Below, one piece after another: positions 1 through 34,391 of a stretch of DNA of 34,391 nucleotides. The notes below the pieces were generated by a model. It was not told the origin of the DNA and searched no databases. It was given only the letters and a program-made list of their open reading frames with translations. A program made the translations under genes and the position numbers. Each line of letters opens with the position of its first letter. The first letter of the stretch is position 1. The stretch comes from a virus. The DNA is taken from positions 1 through 34,391 of IMG/VR virus record IMGVR_UViG_3300021586_000024; one strand, given 5' to 3'.

Positions 1-48
1 GCCTAACTTGAATTCGCCCGCAGAAACTGCGGAATAACACAGTAACAG
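1..48 (-). other. attI: attI-like integron recombination site (core at 1-7)
   Basis: Read on the minus strand, the segment ends in GTTAGGC (complement of positions 1-7), a perfect GTTRRRY core. It lies directly upstream of intI, where attI normally sits. Further from the core, the minus strand has TGTTAC and TGTTAT about 8 bases apart (complements of 41-46 and 33-38). These resemble the paired direct repeats of attI1 that bind the integrase. A perfect dyad, CCGCAG-AAA-CTGCGG (18-32), lies between them and the core. By integron convention, cassettes inserted here would extend leftward out of the window on the minus strand. The alternative is that positions 1-7 are the outer core of an attC, but no matching second core is seen. 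Confidence 0.6.
27..42. promoter_or_regulatory. Candidate LexA (SOS) box at intI
   Basis: The segment CTGCGGAATAACACAG fits CTG-N10-CAG, with flanking AA before it and TA after it as in the enterobacterial LexA consensus. It ends 6 bases before the intI start codon. Many integron integrase genes are known to be repressed by LexA through a box overlapping their promoter, so the position makes sense. The left arm is CTGC rather than CTGT. This is one degenerate site, so chance remains possible. Confidence 0.45.
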
Positions 49-1083
49 ATGAGCGCCGACACCCAATCCAGGCCCCGCACAGCCGCCCACCCAGCCGCAG
101 AGCCAACAGCCCGCGGCATGCTGCAAACGCAGTTTCGGGCGGCCATGCGGGTGCGCCACTACAGCCTGCGCACTGAGCGCACGTACTGGCAGTGGATCAG
201 GCGTTTTGTGCTGTGGTCTGGCAAGCGGCACCCGCGCGACATGGGCGCCGCAGAGATCGGCCAGTTCCTGAGCTGGCTGGCCACTGATGGCGAGGTGTCG
301 GCCAGCACTCAGCGCCAGGCGCTGGCGGCCCTGCTGTTCCTGTATCAGCAGGTGCTGGCGATTGAGCTGCCGTACATCGACAGCATCGTGCGGGCCAAGC
401 AGCCAAAGCGGCTGCCAGTTGTGCTGAGCCGCGAAGAGGTGGCCGCCATTTGGCGGCACATCCCCGACGCCTGCCCGCGCGGCCTGGCCCTGCGTTTGAT
501 GTACGGCACCGGCCTTCGCTTGATGGAAGCGCTACGCCTGCGCATGCAGGATGTGGACTTTTCCACAGGCAGCATCACTGTGCGCGGCGGCAAAGGCGAC
601 AAAGACCGCACCGTGATGTTGCCGCGGACGCTGGAGCCGCAACTGCGCGAGTTGATGCGCCAGCGGGAGGCCTGGCACGTGGTGGACATGGCCACCGGGC
701 ATGCGGACGTTGAACTGCCGAACGCCCTGCACCGCAAGTACCCACAGGCGCCGCGGCAGCTTGGCTGGCAATTCATTTTTGCCACTGAGCACTACTGCAC
801 GTGCCCACGCACTGGCGCCGTGCGGCGGCACCACCTGCACGAAGAGGGCATCCAGCGGCTGATGGCCAAGGCGGTGCAACTGGCCCGCATCGGCAAGCGC
901 GCCACCCCGCACACCCTGCGCCACTCGTTTGCCACCCACCTGCTGCAGGCGGGCTATGACATCCGCACCATTCAGACGCTGCTGGGCCACTCGGATGTTG
1001 AAACGACCATGATTTACACCCACGTGCTGCCAGCCAGCCAGGGCGGCCGGGGCGTCATCAGCCCGCTTGATGCCCTGGCGTAA
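49..1083 (+). CDS. intI: Integron integrase IntI (tyrosine recombinase)
   Basis: This 344-residue site-specific recombinase would catalyse attI x attC and attC x attC recombination, inserting and excising gene cassettes. The core-binding region starts near residue 25 and includes the family-typical HYSLRTERTY (37-46) and VSASTQRQALAALL (83-96). All tyrosine-recombinase catalytic residues are visible: R157, K182, H288, R291, H314 and nucleophile Y323. Each sits exactly 11 positions after its counterpart in class 1 IntI1. The insert unique to IntI proteins is present at about 222-262 (LPNALHRKYP through GAVRRHH) and separates this protein from XerC/D and phage integrases. The C-terminus ends in SPLDALA, as is usual for the family. 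The gene looks full length and uninterrupted. The ATG at 49 follows the attI-like site by one base, with no clear Shine-Dalgarno. Cognate cassettes would lie to the left; the attC sites seen here are 33 kb to the right. Confidence 0.93.
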   Translation: MSADTQSRPRTAAHPAAEPTARGMLQTQFRAAMRVRHYSLRTERTYWQWIRRFVLWSGKRHPRDMGAAEIGQFLSWLATDGEVSASTQRQALAALLFLYQQVLAIELPYIDSIVRAKQPKRLPVVLSREEVAAIWRHIPDACPRGLALRLMYGTGLRLMEALRLRMQDVDFSTGSITVRGGKGDKDRTVMLPRTLEPQLRELMRQREAWHVVDMATGHADVELPNALHRKYPQAPRQLGWQFIFATEHYCTCPRTGAVRRHHLHEEGIQRLMAKAVQLARIGKRATPHTLRHSFATHLLQAGYDIRTIQTLLGHSDVETTMIYTHVLPASQGGRGVISPLDALA

Positions 1084-1111: not shown

Positions 1112-1178
1112 GCGCCTCGCTAGGGGTGCTGGCTGCGGCCGGCTGAGAAAGTCCCTTTGAACCTGAGGCGCCGTTGTT
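1112..1178 (+). promoter_or_regulatory. TPP riboswitch (THI element), variant or interrupted
   Basis: The plus strand carries the conserved TPP-aptamer blocks in order: GGGGTGC (1123-1129), a short GC-rich P3-like hairpin, CTGAGA (1143-1148), and CCCTTTGAACCTGA (1153-1166). The 3' side departs from consensus. The expected ATAATGCC-type stretch is replaced by GTTGTT in a GGCGCC/GGCGC hairpin, followed by GCGCAGGCA, which still resembles the conserved closing strand. A good P1 closing helix is not obvious. In bacteria this aptamer normally precedes thiamine synthesis or transport genes such as thiC. Here the next gene is a serine recombinase beginning at 1248, so the phage probably integrated between the leader and its gene, or took over the leader. 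Confidence 0.7.
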
Positions 1179-1247
1179 GGCGCAGGCACACCGCGTTTAC
1201 GTGGCGTGCATGAGGTAAGCCCCGCGCAGCCGATCTAAACTCAGGCG

Positions 1248-2855
1248 ATGACGCCACGGGTTTACAGCTACATCCGATTCAGCCACGCGCGCCAGGCCGC
1301 CGGAGCCAGCACCGAACGGCAGGCAGCCTATGCCAAGCGCTGGGCCGACGAGAACGGGCTGCAGCTCGATGCCGAGCTGACGATGCGCGATGAGGGGCTG
1401 AGCGCCTACCACCAGAGGCATGTGAAGGCCGGCGCCTTGGGCGCGTTCCTGCGCGCCGTCTCGGATGGGCTCATCGCCCCAGGCAGCGTGCTGGTGGTGG
1501 AGGCCCTGGACAGGCTCAGCCGCGCCGAACCGCTGCAGGCTCAGGCCCAGCTCGGCAGCATCATCAATGCGGGCATCAGCGTAGTCACGGCCAGCGATGG
1601 GAAGGTGTACAGCCGGGACAGACTCAAGGCCAACCCCATGGATTTGGTCTACAGCCTACTGGTGATGATCCGCGCGCACGAAGAGAGCGACACCAAGAGC
1701 ACCAGAGTACGCGACGCCATCCGGCGCCAGGTGGACGGCTGGAAGGCCGGCACATACCGCGGCCTTGTGAGCTACGGCCCCACCCCGAGCTGGCTACGCC
1801 GCGCAGGCGACCGATGGGAGTTTGTGCCGGAGCGTGCCGAGGCAGTGCGCCTGGCCGCGGCCATGTGCCTGCAAGGCGCTGGCACAGCGCGCATCGCCCA
1901 GGCACTGCATGAGCGTGACCTGCGCACCAGTGATGCCCCACCCACCAGCGGCGCCCTGGTGCGCCTGTTTGCGCAGCCAGCCCTGATGGGCGACAAACAC
2001 CTGCAGCTTGATGGCACAGAGCACGTGCTGCAGGGCTACTACCCGCCGCTGCTGGAGCCAGCCACCTGGCAGGCGCTGCGGGCCGCGGCCGACGCCAAAG
2101 GCCGCAAGGCCGTGCGCGGTGAAATCCCGTCCATCCTGACGGGCTACGGCATCACCACCTGCGGGTATTGCGGCTCAGCGCTCAAGGCGCAGACCATGGC
2201 CAGCAAGCGCAGGGCTGACGGCAGCCTGGCTGACGGCCACCGCCGGCTGCAGTGCGTGCGCGTCAACGCGGGCGACGGCTGCCCGGTGCCCGGCAGTTGC
2301 TCAGCCGCGCCCATCGAACGCGCCATCATTCGCTATTGCTCGGATGTCATCAACCTGCAGAGGCTCTATGACGGAGACAGCGCCGCCGGCCCGCGCGCTG
2401 TAGTGGCCCAGCTCGCCGATGAGGCGCAGCGCATCGAGAGCCAACTGCAGCGGCTGACGGACGCGCTGCTGACGACAGAGAGCCCGCCCGAGGCATTCGT
2501 ACGCAGGGCCAAAGAGCTGGAGCAAGCAAAGGCCCGCTCTGATGACGCCCTGCGCGCGGCAGAGGCTGAGCTGCAGGCCGCAGCAAGAGCCGGCACCGAT
2601 GGCGCACACCTGCGCTGGCGCTCCATTGCTGATGGTGTGGAGGCGCTCGACTATGACGCCAGGATGCGCGCCCGCCAACTCGTGGCCGACACGTTTTCTC
2701 GGCTCACCATCTGGATGCAGGGCACCAGGCCGCACAGCAAGCGCAGCGGGCCCATTGACGTGATGCTGACAGCCCGAGGAGGGCTGACGCGCTGGCTGCG
2801 GGTGCAGCCGTCAGGCGATTGGGTAGCCGGCGAAGAGGCCGACAGCGCCGGGTAG
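1248..2855 (+). CDS. int: Large serine recombinase (phage integrase)
   Basis: This 535-residue recombinase probably integrates and excises the prophage. The N-terminal resolvase domain has the signature YIRFS (8-12), with S12 as the likely nucleophile, the conserved DRLSR motif at 88-92, and Arg/Glu-rich helices near 140-160. A recombinase domain spans roughly 165-290. A zinc-ribbon candidate with C305, C308, C336 and C345 follows, then a coiled-coil-like Gln/Ala/Glu-rich region at about 385-450, as in large serine integrases. Length and domain order are normal and the frame is open. The gene lies at the left edge of the phage block, convergent with the lysis genes and only 5 bases from the end of Rz1. 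attL is expected just upstream, between the riboswitch and 1248. No convincing Shine-Dalgarno precedes the ATG. Confidence 0.88.
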   Translation: MTPRVYSYIRFSHARQAAGASTERQAAYAKRWADENGLQLDAELTMRDEGLSAYHQRHVKAGALGAFLRAVSDGLIAPGSVLVVEALDRLSRAEPLQAQAQLGSIINAGISVVTASDGKVYSRDRLKANPMDLVYSLLVMIRAHEESDTKSTRVRDAIRRQVDGWKAGTYRGLVSYGPTPSWLRRAGDRWEFVPERAEAVRLAAAMCLQGAGTARIAQALHERDLRTSDAPPTSGALVRLFAQPALMGDKHLQLDGTEHVLQGYYPPLLEPATWQALRAAADAKGRKAVRGEIPSILTGYGITTCGYCGSALKAQTMASKRRADGSLADGHRRLQCVRVNAGDGCPVPGSCSAAPIERAIIRYCSDVINLQRLYDGDSAAGPRAVVAQLADEAQRIESQLQRLTDALLTTESPPEAFVRRAKELEQAKARSDDALRAAEAELQAAARAGTDGAHLRWRSIADGVEALDYDARMRARQLVADTFSRLTIWMQGTRPHSKRSGPIDVMLTARGGLTRWLRVQPSGDWVAGEEADSAG

Positions 2856-28242: not shown

Positions 28243-28482
28243 TCACTCACTCCTACAAAAACCAGGGAACCACTGGAGGAAACTTGGCTGCTTTCTGGTG
28301 GACGGACCTAGCCCACCCTTGGCGCCAAGTCCTTCACTACTGCTCACCGGAGCCACGTAGACCCGCCAGCCTTGCGACGCAGGGGTGCTGGCTTCGCCGC
28401 CCCTTGCCACTTTTTCAACGTCTTCCCCCGAGTAGTGGCTTCTTCCCTGGCCGCTCGCGGTTTCCCCGCCAGCCAGGTGCAT
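28243..28482 (-). CDS. Possible small ORF in the replication operon
   Basis: A 79-codon open frame begins at ATG 28482 (MHLAGGETASGQGRSHYSG) and ends just before ATG 28242. It fills what would otherwise be about 260 bases without a gene between the winged-helix protein and the replication accessory gene. It has no recognised domain, has a low-complexity Gly/Ser-rich composition and lacks a clear Shine-Dalgarno. It may be noncoding. Confidence 0.25.
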   Translation of the reverse strand: MHLAGGETASGQGRSHYSGEDVEKVARGGEASTPASQGWRVYVAPVSSSEGLGAKGGLGPSTRKQPSFLQWFPGFCRSE

Positions 28483-28802: not shown

Positions 28803-29005
28803 CAGCGGCATCCCCCACGCTCGCTGCGCACAAATGCACGGCATTGCGGGCTCTTTTCGGGGAATGCCATCAAGGCCGATTTGCCGATGCCGATGTCATC
28901 GGCATGGCCGCCACCACCCAAAAAGAAGCCCCGACCCACACGGGCCGGGGCAAATCCCGCAAAGCGGGAGGGAGGAGACAACTGAAGAAATGCGGCGGCA
29001 CTCAT
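28802..29005 (-). CDS. Doubtful ORF overlapping a terminator
   Basis: A 67-codon frame starts in an ATGA overlap with the Cro-like gene and ends in a TGATG overlap with the winged-helix gene, which argues for translation. But its middle (GRGFFLGGGG) is encoded by an intrinsic-terminator-like hairpin and T-run, which argues that the region is a leader. No domain recognised. Confidence 0.3.
   Translation of the reverse strand: MSAAAFLQLSPPSRFAGFAPARVGRGFFLGGGGHADDIGIGKSALMAFPEKSPQCRAFVRSERGGCR
28887..28905. promoter_or_regulatory. Perfect 19-bp dyad
   Basis: ATGCCGATG-T-CATCGGCAT has 9-base arms around a single central base, too tight for an RNA hairpin loop, so it is better as a dimeric DNA-binding site. 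It lies between the terminator-like hairpin and the winged-helix gene. It could be that protein's operator. Confidence 0.4.
28917..28951 (-). terminator. Intrinsic terminator downstream of the Cro-like gene
   Basis: On the minus strand GCCCCG...CGGGGC forms a GC stem extended inward by CCC/GGG, followed at once by TTCTTTTT. A second small hairpin (CCCGC-AAA-GCGGG) lies just before it. Position matches lambda tR1: after Cro, before replication genes. It would need antitermination or leak for the operon to be expressed. Confidence 0.6.
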
Positions 29006-29280
29006 GCAGCACCCCGCGAACACATGGTGTTGCACACAACCGCAGCCCCCGCACTCGATGGGCGCGCAGCCGCTGCCGCCCTGCAGCGCATGGCATGCTG
29101 CAGCATTGCGTCCACCGTCACCGCACCGCCTGTGACCTCTGCCACACGCGGGATAAGGCCCAAAGGCACCCCGGATTCGCGCCACAGCGAAACCGCCGCC
29201 TTTGTGCGCGACAACTGATCGGCAAGCCAAGTTGCCTTGCCAGCGTTTTCAGGCATGTCAAGCCACTGATGGAGTTCCAT
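29002..29280 (-). CDS. Cro-like regulator (YdaS family)
   Basis: A 92-residue helix-turn-helix protein divergent from the repressor. The N-terminal MELHQWLDMPENAGKATWLADQ and KAAVSLWRESGVPLGLIPRVAEVTGG are the YdaS-type Cro pattern. The C-terminal tail is Ala/Arg-rich. It should compete with the repressor for the operators and favour lytic growth. It is the first gene of the leftward operon. No Shine-Dalgarno is evident. Confidence 0.8.
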   Translation of the reverse strand: MELHQWLDMPENAGKATWLADQLSRTKAAVSLWRESGVPLGLIPRVAEVTGGAVTVDAMLQHAMRCRAAAAARPSSAGAAVVCNTMCSRGAA

Positions 29281-29286
29281 GGCCGA

Positions 29287-29328
29287 AGTTTAGGCGATCT
29301 TAAACCTACTTGTAAAGCACCCCCTAAA
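29287..29328. promoter_or_regulatory. Leftward promoter and operator pair
   Basis: Two 16-bp dyads of the form TTTAGG-N4-CCTAAA lie at 29289-29304 (TTTAGGCGATCTTAAA) and 29313-29328 (TAAAGCACCCCCTAAA, degenerate left arm), 24 bases apart. On the minus strand TTTACA (29316-29311) and TAAACT (29292-29287), 18 bases apart, could be the -35 and -10 of the promoter for the Cro-like gene. The near dyad covers this -10. The divergent repressor gene lies to the right. Confidence 0.55.
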
Positions 29329-29354
29329 CCAGTGGGTTGTACGCTGTTCGCGCC

Positions 29355-29666
29355 ATGCACTCCCTACGCCGCATCAAACTACAAGCTCTCATAGAAGGCC
29401 GTTTCAACGGCGATAGGGGAGCGTTTTTGGAAGCATCAGGACTCTCGAAAGGCCGGCTCAGCCAATTGCTGAACCCTGAAGAACCTTTCGGCGACACCGC
29501 CGCGCGCAACCTAGAGGATCGGCTGCACCTTGATCCGGGGTTTTTCGACGCAATGGACGCAAGAACCCTTGCGTTTGCACTGAATTTCGACCGACTGCCC
29601 GAGCACCAAAAGCAGCAGTGGGAGAACATCGTGGAGGTGCTGGCCAAACCAGCACCGGGCACCTAG
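29355..29666 (+). CDS. Short CI-like phage repressor
   Basis: A 103-residue protein with an N-terminal HTH domain: HSLRRIKLQALIEGRFNGDRG, then FLEASGLSKGRLSQLLNPEEPFGDTAARNLE, then a LHLDPGFFD motif, common in phage C-type repressors that usually carry an S24 peptidase domain. Here the protein stops after about 35 further residues with no S24 domain. Operator pairs flank the gene on both sides. No Shine-Dalgarno precedes the ATG, so a leaderless message is possible. A TTG further up is less likely. Confidence 0.75.
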   Translation: MHSLRRIKLQALIEGRFNGDRGAFLEASGLSKGRLSQLLNPEEPFGDTAARNLEDRLHLDPGFFDAMDARTLAFALNFDRLPEHQKQQWENIVEVLAKPAPGT

Positions 29667-29692
29667 TGGTTTCCCTTGTCAGACGAAACGGG

Positions 29693-29733
29693 TTTAGGTT
29701 TGACTTGACAGGCGGTTTAGGTTGACCTAAAGT
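29693..29733 (+). promoter_or_regulatory. Rightward early promoter with operator pair
   Basis: A perfect TTGACA (29705-29710) lies 17 bases before TAAAGT (29728-29733), a good sigma70-type promoter. Dyads lie at 29693-29708 (TTTAGGTTTGACTTGA, degenerate right arm) and 29716-29731 (TTTAGGTTGACCTAAA, perfect), 23 bases apart. The perfect one covers the spacer and -10, and the other covers the -35. Binding of the repressor would block this promoter, which drives the rightward operon starting at 29762. Confidence 0.7.
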
Positions 29734-29761
29734 GCGTTCCATCAACCCGATGGAGCGCACG

Positions 29762-29950
29762 ATGCTCAGCCAACCAACCCCGCAAGCACCAGCCACCGCG
29801 CTGCACGCCGCCCTGGCGCGCTACCGCACGGTGCACGACCTGCTGACCGCCGCGCACGACCAGGCGCAGCCCAATCGCTTTGCCGCCCAGCCGGCCGTGC
29901 ACCCCGCACTGGCCGCGCCCACCGTCACCCTGCAGAGTGCCGCGCAATGA
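29762..29950 (+). CDS. First gene of the rightward early operon, unknown
   Basis: A 62-residue Ala/Gln/Pro-rich protein (MLSQPTPQAPATALHAALARY, then RTVHDLLTAAHDQAQ). GGAG lies six bases before ATG 29762. It starts about 25 bases after the predicted transcription start and overlaps the next gene by 4 bases. No family recognised; being the first product of the early operon is its only clue. Confidence 0.6.
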   Translation: MLSQPTPQAPATALHAALARYRTVHDLLTAAHDQAQPNRFAAQPAVHPALAAPTVTLQSAAQ

Positions 29951-30423
29951 GTGCCGCCGCCCTGCTGATGCGCGCCATTGCCGCTGTGGCTTTCTGCGCC
30001 GCCTGCGCGCTGGTGCTGGCGTTTGCCAGCCCCGCCCACGCCAAGCTGGCCACGGATGACTGGCTGGCAGGCGCCCACCTGTTCAGCCGCCACGAAAACG
30101 CCGCGGCCTTCAAAGACGGCAACCGCGGCGCCTACGTGCAGCACCTGCGCACCGGCATCACGGCCGGCATCGTGCGCAACAGCTACGGACGCACCAGCGC
30201 CTACCTCGGGCACACCTGGCACACGGCAGATGGGCGCTTTGCGTTGACGGCCGGCGCCATCACCGGATACCCGGACAGCCCGGTATCACCGCTGCTGATT
30301 CCCAGCATGCGCCTGCCGCTGACGCGCAACCTGGCCGCGCGCCTGAGCTACCTGCCCAAGCCACCGCGGTATGGCGCCAGCAGCGCCGTGCACCTCAGTG
30401 TTGAAACCACGTGGGGCCGCTGA
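29947..30423 (+). CDS. Secreted phage protein with beta-rich fold, unknown
   Basis: A 158-residue protein with an N-terminal signal peptide (hydrophobic about 8-25, ending SPAHA-K). The mature part has WLAGAHLFSRHENA, VRNSYGRTSAYLGHTW and FALTAGAITGYPDSPVSPLL, a beta-strand pattern found in small secreted proteins of Burkholderiales and Pseudomonas phages. It might act in the envelope, for example in exclusion of other phages, but that is inferred only from early expression and export. It overlaps its neighbour by 4 bases. Confidence 0.65.
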   Translation: MSAAALLMRAIAAVAFCAACALVLAFASPAHAKLATDDWLAGAHLFSRHENAAAFKDGNRGAYVQHLRTGITAGIVRNSYGRTSAYLGHTWHTADGRFALTAGAITGYPDSPVSPLLIPSMRLPLTRNLAARLSYLPKPPRYGASSAVHLSVETTWGR

Positions 30424-30424
30424 C

Positions 30425-30568
30425 ATGCGCAGGCCCAACACCGCCACCTGGCCCAGCGCACTGCTGGCCATCTTCACCGGCGCCGGCATTGCCACCGGCA
30501 CCATGTACGGGCACCTCGTGCCCACTGCTGCGCAAGCCGTGTGGCATGCGCTGGGAGGTCTGCTGTGA
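30425..30568 (+). CDS. Small single-helix membrane protein
   Basis: A 47-residue protein with one hydrophobic segment (SALLAIFTGAGIATGTMYGHLV). It starts one base after the previous stop and its stop overlaps the next GTG. It probably sits in the inner membrane. Function unknown. Confidence 0.6.
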   Translation: MRRPNTATWPSALLAIFTGAGIATGTMYGHLVPTAAQAVWHALGGLL

Positions 30569-30867
30569 TTCGAGGTTTTGTGCAACTGCTGCGCGACATC
30601 ATCGCGCTACCCGGGCAACTGGCCGAAGAGGCGCGCGACATGCGCCGCCGCAGCGCCATCCACCGCCAGATTGATGAGCTGGACATGCGCGAGGCTCAGC
30701 TTCAACTGCGCCACGCCTGGCTGATGCGCGCCGTTGACTTCAGCGACGACGAGGCCCGCACGCAGGCCCAGGCCGCGCTGCAGCAAGTCAACCACGATCT
30801 GCTGGAGCTGGCGAAGACCCGCCGCCGCCTGCGCGTCAGCCTGAGCCAACTGCGCCTGGTGCTGTGA
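30565..30867 (+). CDS. Coiled-coil protein of the early operon, unknown
   Basis: A 100-residue protein from GTG 30565, which overlaps the previous stop (GTGA). It is helical and rich in Arg, Gln, Leu and Glu: LPGQLAEEARDMRRRSAIHRQ, then a long helix to the C-terminus RVSLSQLRLVL. A coiled coil is likely. No family recognised. Confidence 0.55.
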   Translation: MIRGFVQLLRDIIALPGQLAEEARDMRRRSAIHRQIDELDMREAQLQLRHAWLMRAVDFSDDEARTQAQAALQQVNHDLLELAKTRRRLRVSLSQLRLVL

Positions 30868-31235
30868 TGCCAACGGCCACCCAACGCGCCCATGCAGCCG
30901 CTGCGCCGCTGGCCATCCGCATCAGCGGCCGGCTGCTGTGCGATGCAGTGGTGCGCTACACCGTGGGCGCAGAGCCCCGGGCGCTGCTGGTGGCCGAGCT
31001 GGACGGCGCGCACGGCCTGCCCATCGTGGCGCAGCAAGACCTTGGCACCAGCCCCACCGCGCACATGGCCGCCCACAGCAAGTGCGCCAGCCTGCGGCAG
31101 CACGCCAGGGTGACGGCCTTTGGCGAAAGCATCAGCCTGTGGGTGCGCAACGGCGCCCCAGCGCTGCGCCTGAACTTCTGCAGCGACCTCATCCCCGAAA
31201 CCTACATCACCCGCCTGACGCGCGGGCAAGACTGA
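30867..31235 (+). CDS. Early operon protein, unknown
   Basis: A 122-residue beta-rich protein (LAIRISGRLLCDAVVRYTVG, then RALLVAELDGAHGLPIVAQQ). The pattern resembles a small beta-barrel, for example an OB-like fold, but no family was recognised. ATG 30867 overlaps the previous stop by one base. Confidence 0.6.
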   Translation: MPTATQRAHAAAAPLAIRISGRLLCDAVVRYTVGAEPRALLVAELDGAHGLPIVAQQDLGTSPTAHMAAHSKCASLRQHARVTAFGESISLWVRNGAPALRLNFCSDLIPETYITRLTRGQD

Positions 31236-31246
31236 AAGAGCACCCC

Positions 31247-31786
31247 ATGGGCAGACCCCAAGACCCCGAGCGCGCGGCATCCATCGCCCGCATGGTGGAC
31301 ATGTGCGACACCGCACCGTGCACCAAATCGCAACTGATGCACGCCTTTGACGCACCCGAATGGATGATCAACCACTGGACGTATGCGGCCAGCAAAGACA
31401 ACCGCATCACGTTCAGCCGGGCCGTCAATGGCTGGATCACGCCGCGCCTGGGCAAAGAGCTGGGCGTGTGCGGCCAGCAGCAGGACACCGCCCGCGTGCC
31501 GTTGCGGCCCGTGTGGGACACCACCACGCCCGTGGTTGAGCACAAAGACGGGGTGATCTACACCACGTGCCCGGCCCCCCGCCACCCGTACCACGCAGAC
31601 CCGTCTGTGTGCGGCCGAGGCGCAATCTCCGGCGATTGGATGGCCAGGCGCCAGGGCGTGGCCGTGCCCAGCCGCGTGCCCGGCCTGACCGGCGGGCCGG
31701 CGGCTGAACTGCCCGTCAACCGCGCGCACCTGCTGGGCCTGGAAAGCCTGCAGCCCATCACCACCACGCACACGGAGGCAGCATGA
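31247..31786 (+). CDS. Early operon protein, possible DNA-binding N-terminus
   Basis: A 179-residue protein. The N-terminal half (AASIARMVDMCDTAPCTKSQ, MHAFDAPEWMINHWTYAASK) has a helix-turn-helix-like rhythm reminiscent of phage regulatory proteins. The C-terminal half is Pro/Gly/Arg-rich. GAAAGAG precedes the ATG. It overlaps the DUF4406-like gene by 4 bases. Confidence 0.55.
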   Translation: MGRPQDPERAASIARMVDMCDTAPCTKSQLMHAFDAPEWMINHWTYAASKDNRITFSRAVNGWITPRLGKELGVCGQQQDTARVPLRPVWDTTTPVVEHKDGVIYTTCPAPRHPYHADPSVCGRGAISGDWMARRQGVAVPSRVPGLTGGPAAELPVNRAHLLGLESLQPITTTHTEAA

Positions 31787-32160
31787 AGCTGTATCTCTCC
31801 GGGCCCATGACCGGCCTGCCTGACGACAATTTCCCCGCCTTCCACAAGGCCGCGGCCGCGCTGCGCGCCATGGGGCACGAGGTGGTCAACCCTGCCGAGC
31901 TGGTGGTGGACACGCCGCGCGAGAGCCCCGAGTTTTGGAGCGCCTGCCTGCGCGCCGACCTGAAGGCCATGCTCGATTGCGACGGCATCGCGCTGCTGCA
32001 AGGCTGGTGGGCCAGCAAAGGCGCCAATCTGGAGCTGCACGTGGCGCACCGCGTCAACATGCAGGTGCTGTTTGTGCCGGAGTTGCTGCAGAAACGGCGC
32101 TACTACGACCAGGTGCAGGCCGCCGCAGCCGAGGGCGTTGCGCAGGGGCAGGCGTCATGA
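31783..32160 (+). CDS. DUF4406 / nucleoside 2-deoxyribosyltransferase-like protein
   Basis: A 125-residue protein begins MKLYLSGPMTGLPDDNFPAFH and continues with RAMGHEVVNPAELV, DLKAMLDCDGIALLQGWWAS and GANLELHVAHRV. These are the standard blocks of DUF4406, a family with the 2-deoxyribosyltransferase fold. Related enzymes move bases between nucleosides or act on NAD+. Whether this one is active is unknown, but the fold's nucleotide-binding residues (SGPMTG, and the Asp-rich CDGIALL) are intact. Its ATG overlaps the previous stop. Confidence 0.8.
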   Translation: MKLYLSGPMTGLPDDNFPAFHKAAAALRAMGHEVVNPAELVVDTPRESPEFWSACLRADLKAMLDCDGIALLQGWWASKGANLELHVAHRVNMQVLFVPELLQKRRYYDQVQAAAAEGVAQGQAS

Positions 32161-32402
32161 TTGGCACGCAACCCACCGGCCGGCTGCCCGGTGTTGTGAT
32201 CAGCGCCGTCGGGCACGAGGGGCTGAGCGTTACCGCCAACGGCAGGCCCGCGCGCCTGGCCGTGGTGGACGAAAACGGCCAGGTGCTGGTGGCCGGGCCC
32301 GAGGTGGCCCAGGAAGCCGAGGCCGTGGCCATCAACATGTACCGCAAGATTTGGCAGCACCAGGGCCATCTGCGTGTGCACAGCAAGCCGCTGGGCGCCT
32401 GA
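32157..32402 (+). CDS. Early operon protein, unknown
   Basis: An 81-residue protein (MIGTQPTGRLPGVVISAVGH, then PARLAVVDENGQVLVAGPEV). The first part is beta-rich and the end helical. ATG overlaps the previous stop (ATGA). No family recognised. Confidence 0.55.
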   Translation: MIGTQPTGRLPGVVISAVGHEGLSVTANGRPARLAVVDENGQVLVAGPEVAQEAEAVAINMYRKIWQHQGHLRVHSKPLGA

Positions 32403-32406
32403 AACC

Positions 32407-32910
32407 ATGGGCCGCACCAGCAAACCCCGCAAGACCTACCGGCCTGGCCGTGTGAACCCGCTGGCCATGCTGGCAGCGTTCCAGGGCTCGGCCCTGCTGA
32501 CGCTGGACGACCGCCTGACCTGGCAAAGCGAGCTGCACGAGGCACTGACCGCCGTCAGCCGCGGCCAGGCCAGAAAAGCCCAATGGGCCGCGCTGTTCGA
32601 TGCCATCAACCTCACCGAGGAACTCTGCCGCATGCGCCTGGCAACCGACGCCGATGGCGTGGTGCCGGCCGCACAGGATGCCGTCTGTGCAGTGCTGGAC
32701 AGGCAGCAGGCCAGCGGTGTGCGCGCGGTGCGGGCCACAGAGCTGCAGGCGCTGCGCGATTTGGTGGCCGCGTTTGCCGACCTGATGGCAGGCATCACGC
32801 ACAAAGACAAGTACGACGCGGAGGCGCGAGTGGCAGAGCGCGTGCGTCGGGTGCTGGCGCAGCCGGCTGAACGGGAAGGCGTGAGGGTGTTCGATGCAGC
32901 ACGATACTGA
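32407..32910 (+). CDS. Early operon protein, unknown
   Basis: A 167-residue helical protein: MGRTSKPRKTYRPGRVNPLA, then a long helical stretch (QSELHEALTAVSRGQARKAQ, AINLTEELCRMRLATD) and AFADLMAGITHKDKYDAEARV. The basic N-terminus could bind nucleic acid. Proteins with this general look are common in early operons of Burkholderiales phages but have no known role. It overlaps the next gene by 17 bases. Confidence 0.6.
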   Translation: MGRTSKPRKTYRPGRVNPLAMLAAFQGSALLTLDDRLTWQSELHEALTAVSRGQARKAQWAALFDAINLTEELCRMRLATDADGVVPAAQDAVCAVLDRQQASGVRAVRATELQALRDLVAAFADLMAGITHKDKYDAEARVAERVRRVLAQPAEREGVRVFDAARY

Positions 32911-33118
32911 ACAGCTAACGCCCTGGTTTGTGGGCGTACAGCCTGCGCGGCCGGGGTGGTATGACGTGACCCTGCGGGCCGGGTGGAACACGGTGCGGCT
33001 GCTGTGGAAGAACGGCAGTTGGTGGGTATCAGGCCATGACGGCATGTTGCACCGGCTTGACTGCCGCATCTACAACACGCTGCGGTGGCGCGGGCTTTTG
33101 AAGGGCACGCAGCAATGA
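32894..33118 (+). CDS. Small Trp-rich early protein, unknown
   Basis: A 74-residue protein with PARPGWYDVTLRAGWNTVRL and LLWKNGSWWVSG, a Trp-rich beta-pattern like several small domains of unknown function in phages. It overlaps both neighbours, the downstream one by 4 bases. Confidence 0.55.
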   Translation: MQHDTEQLTPWFVGVQPARPGWYDVTLRAGWNTVRLLWKNGSWWVSGHDGMLHRLDCRIYNTLRWRGLLKGTQQ

Positions 33119-33393
33119 TGCACGCGCCGCTCAAGCAATACAGCCACGAGCCGGCGCCCGGCGGCTGGGACGTAGTGACCAGCGAAGGCATCTATTCTAG
33201 CGGCCCGTTCCTGAGCGAGCACCTGGCAGCCGCGGAAGCGGTGCGCCTCAATCGCGCAGTGCTGCGAAACGAAGGAAAGCACACGCACGATTACCCGGCA
33301 TGCGCTGTCTTCCGATGCGGGAAATGCACATGTGATGCATGCAACGAGCAACCAAACCACCCGAGCAGCCCAGCCGGAGGCCACACGTCATGA
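33115..33393 (+). CDS. Early protein with Cys cluster, unknown
   Basis: A 92-residue protein with YSHEPAPGGWDVVTSEG and a C-terminal Cys cluster in RCGKCTCDACN (four Cys), which could bind a metal. It starts at ATG 33115, another ATG follows one codon on. The stop overlaps the next ATG (ATGA). Confidence 0.55.
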   Translation: MMHAPLKQYSHEPAPGGWDVVTSEGIYSSGPFLSEHLAAAEAVRLNRAVLRNEGKHTHDYPACAVFRCGKCTCDACNEQPNHPSSPAGGHTS

Positions 33394-33590
33394 GCAACGG
33401 TGACCCGTGGGAAATGCCCGGCGGGCATCGAGCCATTGAGGTGTCTGGAACCACTAGAACCGTGCTGAGGCTGAGCGTGATCGACCCTTCATGGCCATTC
33501 ATGAAGCCGCCAATTGAGGTGGCCAGGGTACTGTGCAAGCGCTTGCCCATGAGGTACTACCACGGGCAGGTGCCGGATGCGCCATTTTGA
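33390..33590 (+). CDS. Small early protein, unknown
   Basis: A 66-residue protein (MSNGDPWEMPGGHRAIEVSG, then PIEVARVLCKRLPMRYYHGQ). ATG overlaps the previous stop. No family recognised. Confidence 0.5.
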   Translation: MSNGDPWEMPGGHRAIEVSGTTRTVLRLSVIDPSWPFMKPPIEVARVLCKRLPMRYYHGQVPDAPF

Positions 33591-33607
33591 GATTGGAGCA
33601 ACAAAGA

Positions 33608-33775
33608 ATGACGAAACGCGAACTGATGGAGCTGGCCGGCATTAGCACGCTGGCTGGTGGCGGCGTGATCGCAGCGCTTGCGCTGCTGGTGCTTTACATC
33701 GCTGCGCTTGGCGCGGCTGCTGGTGCGTTCTTAGGTGCCGCAGTTTGGGTGTTTCGCGCCATCACGGGATCGTGA
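33608..33775 (+). CDS. Small membrane protein next to attC1
   Basis: A 55-residue protein with two hydrophobic stretches (LAGGGVIAALALLVLYIA and LGAAAGAFLGAAVWVF), so probably one or two membrane helices. GGAG lies about 8 bases before ATG 33608. The gene ends 7 bases before attC1, the position of a cassette gene just before its attC. But no upstream core site bounds it on the left, and it continues the phage operon. It may be phage, cassette or both. Confidence 0.6.
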   Translation: MTKRELMELAGISTLAGGGVIAALALLVLYIAALGAAAGAFLGAAVWVFRAITGS

Positions 33776-33782
33776 GAGAGCA

Positions 33783-33882
33783 CCTTAACCCCCCGCTCAG
33801 CCGACAAGGAGGCGAAACCAAATGACCGAAGAGAACCGAAGCACAGACGCCGACGCTGGTCGGCTGGAGCACGGAGTTAGGC
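33783..33882 (+). other. attC: attC site 1
   Basis: The right core is GTTAGGC (33876-33882), a perfect GTTRRRY. The left outer core is CCTTAAC (33783-33789), one base off RYYYAAC. The inner arms pair GCTC-AGCCGAC (33795-33805) with GTCGGCT-G-GAGC (33859-33870), perfect but for one extrahelical base, the structural hallmark of attC. Unpaired central spacers lie on both sides and the loop is 53 bases. The loop contains AAGGAGG and ATG 33822, so the site carries translation signals. The site is about 100 bases and points right. Confidence 0.8.
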
Positions 33883-34160
33883 CGCGTGCGTGGGTGATTT
33901 TTTTGGATGACGGCAATGCACGCATGTGGACCACGTTGCAGCCGCACGTTCAAAAGCTGGCAGACGCCGAAGGCCTAGAGGTGACGCCGCTGTACGACAA
34001 AGCCGCGATTGACGCCGCTCGCATGGCTGGCGTGCATTCAGTGCATGAGCAGACAGCGCTGATTGTGCGCGCTGCGCTCGAACTGCTGGAAGCGGTGGAA
34101 GGCTGCGAAGCATTCCCGCCCGAGAAAATGGCCGCGTTGCGGCGCGTCTTTGGAGCGTAA
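33822..34160 (+). CDS. Cassette gene 1, unknown (phage-like)
   Basis: From ATG 33822 this is 112 residues. AAGGAGG precedes that ATG, but it and the first 18 codons lie inside attC1, before the recombination point. The alternative start GTG 33894 lies just past the core and gives a protein of about 88 residues beginning (M)IFLDDGNARMWTTL. The remaining motifs, EGLEVTPLYDKAAIDAARMA and a helical C-terminus, recall short phage proteins with a 'PLY' motif. If the upstream ATG is used, recombination would swap its N-terminus. Confidence 0.65.
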   Translation: MTEENRSTDADAGRLEHGVRPRAWVIFLDDGNARMWTTLQPHVQKLADAEGLEVTPLYDKAAIDAARMAGVHSVHEQTALIVRAALELLEAVEGCEAFPPEKMAALRRVFGA

Positions 34161-34354
34161 CGATGTTTAATTTTTCAGACCGTGACCTGTACGCATTCCT
34201 CGCCGCCGTTGCCGCCATCCTGGTCGGCTTTGGCGTCTTGCTGGCCTGGCTCGCGCCCGTCGTGTGGCGCTGGGTGAAGCCCTTGCTGCACGCTCTGACG
34301 GCCTAACCCCCAGCTAACGGGCCGAGCCTTGCGAGGTCCGCGTTGAGCGTGGAG
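33877..34354 (+). mobile_element. Integron gene cassette bounded by attC1 and attC2
   Basis: Integrases cut between G and TT of GTTRRRY, so the mobile unit would run from 33877 to 34354, 478 bases. It carries two small genes in the same direction and ends in its own attC, the standard cassette layout. Two ORFs per cassette is less usual than one. Both look like phage products. Confidence 0.75.
34163..34306 (+). CDS. Cassette gene 2: small phage-like membrane protein
   Basis: A 47-residue protein begins MFNFSDRDLYAFLAAVAAIL, then one long hydrophobic helix and VWRWVKPLLHALTA. This opening and ending match my memory of small membrane proteins in phage early or accessory operons. It starts two bases after the previous stop. 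Its TAA lies inside the GCCTAAC core of attC2, a common trait of cassettes. Its presence between attC sites suggests capture of phage genes by an integron, or an integron inside a phage. Confidence 0.65.
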   Translation: MFNFSDRDLYAFLAAVAAILVGFGVLLAWLAPVVWRWVKPLLHALTA

Positions 34355-34360
34355 TTAGGC
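34301..34360 (+). other. attC: attC site 2
   Basis: Outer cores are GCCTAAC (34301-34307) and GTTAGGC (34354-34360), perfectly complementary. The inner arms GCT-AACG-GG-CC and the opposite GGTCCGCGTTGAGC pair with three extrahelical bases. The total is 60 bases, the classic short attC size. It shares GAGCxxGGAGTTAGGC with attC1 and has the same direction. Confidence 0.88.
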
Positions 34361-34384
34361 TGTGGCCAAACAGAAAGGAAGACG

Positions 34385-34391
34385 ATGGATA
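34385..34391 (+). CDS. Start of next cassette gene (cut by window end)
   Basis: An AAAGGAA Shine-Dalgarno-like stretch (34374-34380) is followed by ATG 34385 just past attC2, where the next cassette gene should begin. Only the first codons are visible, so nothing about the product can be said. Confidence 0.35.

Follow-up and report, generated by a model that had tools for sequence, protein, structure and literature searches.

Integrons in phages have been described before. Among 10,705 phage genomes, Qi et al. (2023; PMC9892861) report three complete integrons, one intI gene without cassettes and 17 attC clusters; the abstract and results of that paper describe the Vibrio phage integrons as captured from hosts, assign the remaining ones to class 1 or to the Shewanella type, and state that IntI1 was shown to recombine phage attC sites. 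Here, we describe an integron in the virus record IMGVR_UViG_3300021586_000024, an entire contig of 34,391 bp that was analyzed at full length and is referred to as the window. An initial annotation had delimited an operon of small genes under repressor control at positions 29762–33775. We propose, and consider it very probable, that this CI-repressed early operon consists of a stable part (genes P1–P12) and a variable, phage-borne integron tail (an attC array, attI and the integron integrase gene intI), behind which lies the serine integrase of the phage itself. The proposal draws on sequence comparisons: the integron parts, their order in relatives, the orientation of the attC sites, the reversal of the cassette genes, an IntI clade of mostly viral membership and the replacement of arrays at core sites.

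Like the integrons of Qi et al. (2023; PMC9892861), the one described here combines intI, attI and attC within a phage genome. It differs in that the IntI proteins of that survey (from P1, Shewanella and Vibrio) fall outside the 48-row clade containing the window IntI, and neither a fixed position at the end of an early operon nor reversed cassettes are described in the abstract and results of that paper. After capture from the host, IntI should resemble either the host protein or a known mobile class, whereas the window IntI is 50% identical to the host protein and groups with viral contigs. Sedentary chromosomal integrons of the host genus share the same geometry of intI, attI and attC, but have cassette genes that are co-oriented with attC and point away from intI. 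The virus Rctr41k (KX853513) likewise carries an IntI-like gene, annotated as xerD, among small plus-strand genes (L106; KX853513.1, 4680–5678), but its product shows 46% identity to the window IntI and forms, together with four viral contigs, a second, small viral IntI group in our 96-row tree. The stretch of Rctr41k examined contains no attC site at a score of at least 16. A viral intI clade, an intI gene ending a phage early operon or systematically reversed cassettes were not found in the literature, in a search that left out preprints and most subscription papers.

The integron parts lie at both ends of the window. At the left end, an attI-like block (1–48, minus strand) with the R core GCCTAAC at 1–7 is conserved upstream of intI in relatives and coincides with the array breakpoints in two pairs of phages (L054/L059 and L063/L052, see below); conserved core, block and breakpoints mark it as the predicted attI beside intI. 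The adjacent gene (49–1083, plus strand) encodes an integron integrase, which matches TIGR02249 with 431 bits (cut-off 265). Its best relative of solved structure is VchIntIA (2A3V, 7e-78), and the residues that we take to be catalytic are invariant in 12 of 12 sequences. A large serine recombinase follows (1248–2855, plus strand; PF00239 and PF07508), which is likely the phage integrase and shows 51–54% identity to proteins of the Burkholderia phages JC1 and Bcep176. At the right end, two attC sites are found on the minus strand. Site 1 (33783–33882; structural scores 19 and 18 in two scans) begins 8 bases after the open reading frame (ORF) ending at 33775 and is oriented away from intI; site 2 (34301–34360) has a score of 16. 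Both carry R boxes, 5-base spacers, L boxes and a single extra G in the right arm, that is, the boxes and extrahelical base which, besides the integrase gene, define an integron. They are the only attC sites of the window at a score of at least 16, compared with 0.2 per 34 kb in dinucleotide shuffles. The cassette gene P14 (33822–34160, plus strand) has its ribosome-binding site and ATG within attC site 1, and its 53% homologue in the prophage G056 likewise starts inside an attC. It is followed by a second ORF of the cassette, P15 (34163–34306, plus strand), a membrane protein with a span recognized by eye. The idea of a covariance model for attC was given up because the short sites were misaligned in the 15-row alignment.

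As the window contig is not closed, the connection between its left and right ends was inferred from relatives. On the single viral contig L054, homologues occur in the order DnaB, YdaS, CI, P9, P12, intI, J and tape measure. In the prophage G056 of a host genus-mate, a CI-like gene is followed by P9, P14, intI, an excisionase-like ORF, a tyrosine integrase-like ORF (the latter two assigned by eye) and a transfer RNA gene. Two further contigs, G089 and G092, begin with the serine recombinase and end with intI; G089 passes into host-like DNA at both sides, as judged by eye, with intI at the inner edge. Finally, L050 is the window phage in another record, identical (100%) over the genes it holds, and there intI is joined to the serine recombinase. 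Its contig begins one base inside the first base of the window, at the attI core, which explains why a search of the viral contigs with an exact 30-base attI pattern had 0 matches. Two records ending at the attI core would fit variable cassettes at this place, which is only suggestive. Together, these differently cut relatives point to the order repressor, early operon, attC array, attI, intI and phage integrase. To judge from this gene order, the early operon of the temperate window phage most likely has the integron as its tail.

The layout of the window agrees with that of a temperate, lambda-like siphophage whose map is circularly permuted and broken at attI, a view that forms part of our proposal and is as probable as the whole. 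Tail and head genes, terminase, DnaB and an O-like protein, identified by library matches, are encoded leftward. A CI-like repressor gene (29337–29666, plus strand; phrog_5736, transcriptional regulator, 2.6e-4) starts with TTG, or possibly with the ATG at 29355, and its homologue at the equivalent position of L054 is 46% identical. Divergent from it lies a Cro/YdaS-like regulator gene (29002–29280, minus strand; PF15943 YdaS, 3.3e-4, under the curated cut-off). Exactly two promoter-like sites are present within 29200–34391 (0.4 in shuffles), one on each side of the CI-like gene: the early operon promoter (29705–29733, plus strand; TTGACA-17-TAAAGT, 10/12 match) and a divergent promoter at the opposite flank (29287–29316, minus strand; TTTACA-18-TAAACT, 9/12 match). 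A perfect palindrome, TTTAGGTTGACCTAAA, at 29716–29731 (0 expected) covers the –10 region of the rightward promoter. This lambda-type arrangement of a CI-like helix-turn-helix gene, two flanking promoter-like sites and an operator-like palindrome supports the repressor control postulated in the initial annotation. The operon also resembles that of lambda in its end, the phage integrase, as seen from relatives and differently cut contigs, the window itself being cut. We take it to be the equivalent of the lambda pL operon, a site where accessory genes collect. Both are repressor-governed runs of small genes that end at the phage integrase and converge with the tail genes. They differ in the integron before the integrase, in the serine recombinase replacing the tyrosine integrase, and in the lack of a recognized N-like gene; no N-like antiterminator is suggested by the protein-family matches of the operon proteins, with nut-like sites outside the search.

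The right boundary originally placed at 33775 therefore has to be moved, since P14 and P15 continue on the plus strand and relatives show the run-on into the integron and the phage integrase. Because the earlier reading stopped at 33775, it overlooked the cassettes as well as both integrases, that of the integron and the serine integrase. Likewise, the earlier statement that no recombinase gene is recognizable holds within 29762–33775 but not for the operon as a whole, with IntI and the serine recombinase located at the other contig end.

To place the window among other viral integrons, we compared IntI loci in viral contigs. While a first scan gave 18 loci, an alignment scan found IntI relatives encoded in 255 of 328 candidate stretches, the best 80 of which make up the later counts. 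These 80 loci (768,582 bp) contain 46 attC sites, compared with 0 in shuffles; only 40 are distinct because some loci overlap. Every one of the 46 is located upstream of intI and has the same orientation, its extra base being part of the right arm; no site occurs elsewhere. The extra base is a G in 36 of the 40 distinct sites. Where more than 1.5 kb upstream of intI is available, attC sites are present in 23 of 55 loci. In a 58-row IntI tree, 15 viral, prophage and close metagenome-assembled genome (MAG) sequences group together (support 94/57), with a 14-row core at 98/92. This tree drew on 65 full-length IntI rows and omitted L026, L050, L051, L056 and L068 (copies), L060 (broken frame) and L043; the MAG contigs L069 and L070 are labeled viral by closeness, not by phage genes. 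A quick tree of 96 rows, with 60 of the 80 viral rows, recovers a 48-row clade that includes the window IntI (represented by L120) at a support of 98 in the Shimodaira–Hasegawa-like approximate likelihood ratio test. Rows with stop codons, shorter than 300 amino acids or at least 95% identical were omitted. The clade holds 44 viral, three prophage or MAG and one chromosomal row. The chromosomal IntI proteins of the host genus, to which the window IntI shows about 50–54% identity, group apart. A portal or terminase of the families tested was found in 20 of 37 viral records, among them two unlike types (HK97-type and lambda gpA-type); intI therefore occurs in phages with different heads. These records represent 17 of the 18 first loci (L064 omitted) and 20 of the 80 later ones; further tests were applied to 19 of the 37, and Terminase_6N was found in 0 of 19 records.

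The orientation of attC relative to intI is the same in the chromosomal integrons of the host genus (right arm in 15 of 15), but the cassette genes are not. An ATG-initiated ORF with a ribosome-binding site points toward intI in 33 of 40 phage cassettes and in the usual direction in three. We also asked whether the stop codon meets the next site, a test that skipped eight phage and five chromosomal cassettes for spacing. Phage cassettes passed it toward intI in 27 of 35 cases and the usual way in 15 of 35, chromosomal cassettes in one and eight of 10, respectively. Counting only cassettes that pass in a single direction, 13 phage cassettes run toward intI versus one in the usual direction, compared with zero versus seven in the chromosomal set (Fisher p 7e-5). 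An earlier chromosomal control that required a ribosome-binding site in both directions did not distinguish the direction (3/15 vs. 2/15). The phage-borne elements thus depart from the classic integron, in which cassette genes are co-oriented with attC and read from a cassette promoter (Pc) at the integrase end: most of their cassette genes face intI, and L054 shows no promoter-like site near intI. In the first set of loci, 10 of 21 attC sites contain a start codon. Among 12 different cassette proteins scanned, four have a family match (phrog_5086 twice, phrog_7880 and DUF4326). The other eight match neither Pfam nor PHROGs, L054:9568 having been scanned in PHROGs only and L063:6691 in Pfam only.

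Closely related phages differ in their arrays. L054 and L059 show 95.8% and 96.8% identity on the two sides adjoining the array, but BLAST found nothing in common between the end of P12 and attI, a region that measures 2.3 kb in one of the two phages and 3.4 kb in the second. On the left, they part at GCCTAAC/GCCTGAC, which in L054 forms the core of the distal attC, and on the right at the attI core, where L063 and L052 diverge likewise. As judged from these comparisons, arrays were replaced at core sites between near-identical phages. In L065 (5369–5512) and L066 (10001–10144), intI is internally deleted and only a remnant is present, while attI and two attC-like sites are kept; from these remains, the integrase appears to have been lost and the array left behind.

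Based on these observations, we propose the following mechanism. A drop in CI upon induction or infection would allow the early promoter to transcribe backbone, cassettes and intI together. IntI could then capture, excise or reorder cassettes between attC and attI during phage DNA replication, and the phage would presumably benefit from swapping early genes. Cassette recombination would thereby be coupled to the lytic switch. In L054, the only promoter-like sites are the pair at CI, and no plus-strand terminator was found before intI; the corresponding scan of L053 was less clean. Cassettes whose genes face intI would be retained because the sole promoter found reads from the side opposite intI, and several of the reversed cassettes seem to draw their ribosome-binding site and start codon from within attC. 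That the phage IntI is active in recombination is predicted from its catalytic residues and the breakpoints at cores. With moderate confidence, we extend this model to a dedicated viral integron system, in which a largely viral IntI clade ends the early operons of temperate phages and accessory early genes are swapped as reversed cassettes read by the phage promoter, with attC doubling as 5′ leader and start codon. The fast exchange of accessory early genes at one place in phages is usually ascribed to mosaic recombination. If our proposal is true, a phage-owned integron would provide a programmed route for this exchange. Phages would then be carriers, and perhaps makers, of integron cassettes, with cassette shuffling tied to the lytic switch, and the list of cassette genes would be a place to look for counter-defense functions.

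Our first idea was a different one, namely that the phage is integrated in, or was assembled beside, a bacterial chromosomal integron, with the intI and attC at the contig ends being host DNA. The location of the integron parts at both contig ends fits this explanation, the genus often has intI on its chromosomes, including one of the host's own on contig C79, and Qi et al. (2023; PMC9892861) report a Vibrio phage whose excision takes place between two attC sites. We demoted it because of the G056 prophage, the synteny of the relatives and the G089 and G092 maps, and now regard it as very unlikely. The window IntI groups with viral contigs rather than with the chromosomal IntI of the genus; in L054 and G056, intI is embedded in phage synteny, and in G089 it is found, as judged by eye, at the inner edge beside host-like DNA. 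Moreover, the genes by attC face the wrong way for a chromosomal array, and the junction of intI with the serine recombinase recurs in L050, the same phage from another record. Less far-fetched, but still unlikely, is a relic, that is, a phage-borne integron with an inactive IntI, whose arrays change by ordinary homologous recombination at the flanking genes. The attI and attC sites with a mere intI remnant in L065 and L066, the many loci without attC at threshold and the varying quality of the attC sites are in line with such decay. Against it, the catalytic residues are invariant in all 12 sequences, most intI frames are open, and the L054/L059 breakpoints fall at R cores and not within flanking genes. 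We give almost no credence to an ordinary phage early operon in which the terminal GCCTAAC/GTTAGGC repeats are due to chance or terminator-like: both repeats have the attC layout, shuffles yield 0.2 such sites instead of the two at the right end, and similar sites recur in relatives solely upstream of intI and in one orientation. This holds even though a CI-like repressor, promoter and operator, small genes of no assigned function and DUF4406 genes, which are found in many phages, are what an ordinary operon would show, and the DNA hairpin has a z-score of just –0.96.

The proposal of an integron-tailed early operon nevertheless has to accommodate several observations that weigh against it. 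Of the 55 loci in which intI is preceded by more than 1.5 kb, 32 lack attC at threshold, and so do L058 and L061 at a score of 16, although they are relatives with a similar serine recombinase. The hairpin energy of attC site 2 is ordinary (z –0.96), and energy alone would have missed this site. The window contig shows no closure by end overlap, and its right end does not overlap with other contigs of the genome. A chromosomal-labeled row, L038, sits on a long branch inside the 48-row clade, and the viral label costs 10 changes on the 96-row tree; other viral IntI therefore have other origins. In 17 of the 37 viral records, no portal or terminase of the families tested was found, and phage status there is the label of the collection. 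As to cassette direction, the 15 of 35 phage cassettes for which the usual direction satisfies the stop-codon test as well and the small chromosomal control, with 10 cassettes judged, have to be kept in mind.

The operon up to 33775 was described earlier as twelve tightly coupled genes. Coupling and strand stand, with junction gaps of –17 to +17 bp and 4-bp overlaps at six of 12 junctions, but 29762–33775 contains 13 ORFs (P1–P13), all on the plus strand; G+C content at third codon positions of the operon ORFs is 0.65–0.89. No function could be assigned to P1 (29762–29950, 62 aa). P2 (29947–30423, 158 aa) is the exported beta-rich protein, with a signal-peptide-like start seen by eye. A PagP/PagL-like identity was rejected: there is only a weak match to phrog_3600 (PagP, 6e-5), no relative among the viral contigs and three weak matches in Salinibacter phages. 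The structure predictions suggested for each gene were run with AlphaFold2 for P2 alone, giving no usable model (predicted local distance difference test score 43.7). P3 (30425–30568, 47 aa) is a single-span membrane protein, by eye, and P4 (30565–30867, 100 aa) is helical. P5 (30867–31235, 122 aa), of no assigned function, has a homologue (37%) among the early operon genes of L053, while P6 (31247–31786, 179 aa) has no family in the Pfam or PHROGs scans. The DUF4406 gene already recognized is P7 (31783–32160), a nucleoside deoxyribosyltransferase-like protein (PF14359, 5.6e-26; phrog_355, 3.2e-34). Two backbone genes follow: P8 (32157–32402, 81 aa), whose homologues in L058 and L061 (64%) precede intI, and P9 (32407–32910, 167 aa), with homologues in the early operons of L046, L052, L054, L059, L060 and L063 and a weak match to a PHROG of no named function. 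P10 (32894–33118, 74 aa), of no assigned function, also matches a PHROG without named function weakly (phrog_26541, 5e-4). P11 (33115–33393, 92 aa) is the Cys-cluster protein, recognized by eye, with no family above cut-off. P12 (33390–33590, 66 aa) is the last backbone gene, its 50% homologues in L054 and L059 lying directly ahead of the array. Between it and the first attC lies P13 (33608–33775), a small single-span membrane protein by eye, which is either a backbone gene or a former cassette. The exported protein, the two membrane proteins (P3 and P13) and the Cys-cluster protein of the initial annotation are thus found again, in readings by eye. Its suggestion that anti-defense, superinfection exclusion or host-takeover factors reside here fits the position, an accessory-gene site, and would make these genes candidates only; PADLOC, which covers defense and not counter-defense, matched none of 10 proteins (nine of the operon and P14). 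Nor did the operon turn out to hold plain replication accessory genes, the DnaB and O-like genes being on the opposite strand.

Some further elements were found in the window and the host genome. The host's own intI (G000:C79, L214, 15370–16356) is 50% identical to the phage gene product, and its contig shows no attC at a score of 14. On a sister prophage contig of this genome, a further phage-like stretch (G000:C92, L047, 6711–8094) encodes homologues of P9 (68%) and P12 (37%); no intI was found there, and no attC at a score of 18. A Betaproteobacteria-1 small RNA (RF02932, 89.1 bits, gathering threshold 49.4) lies between the O-like and Cro-like genes of the window (28361–28479, minus strand), whereas seven related loci gave no match to it. 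A thiamine pyrophosphate (TPP)-riboswitch-like element (1112–1206, plus strand) separates intI from the serine recombinase gene and scores below gathering (29.8 vs. 54.3 bits); none is present in the G089 or G092 stretches, and contig C55 of the host genome carries a true TPP element. The element of the window sits where attP would be expected, and it may be a riboswitch-mimicking attachment site.

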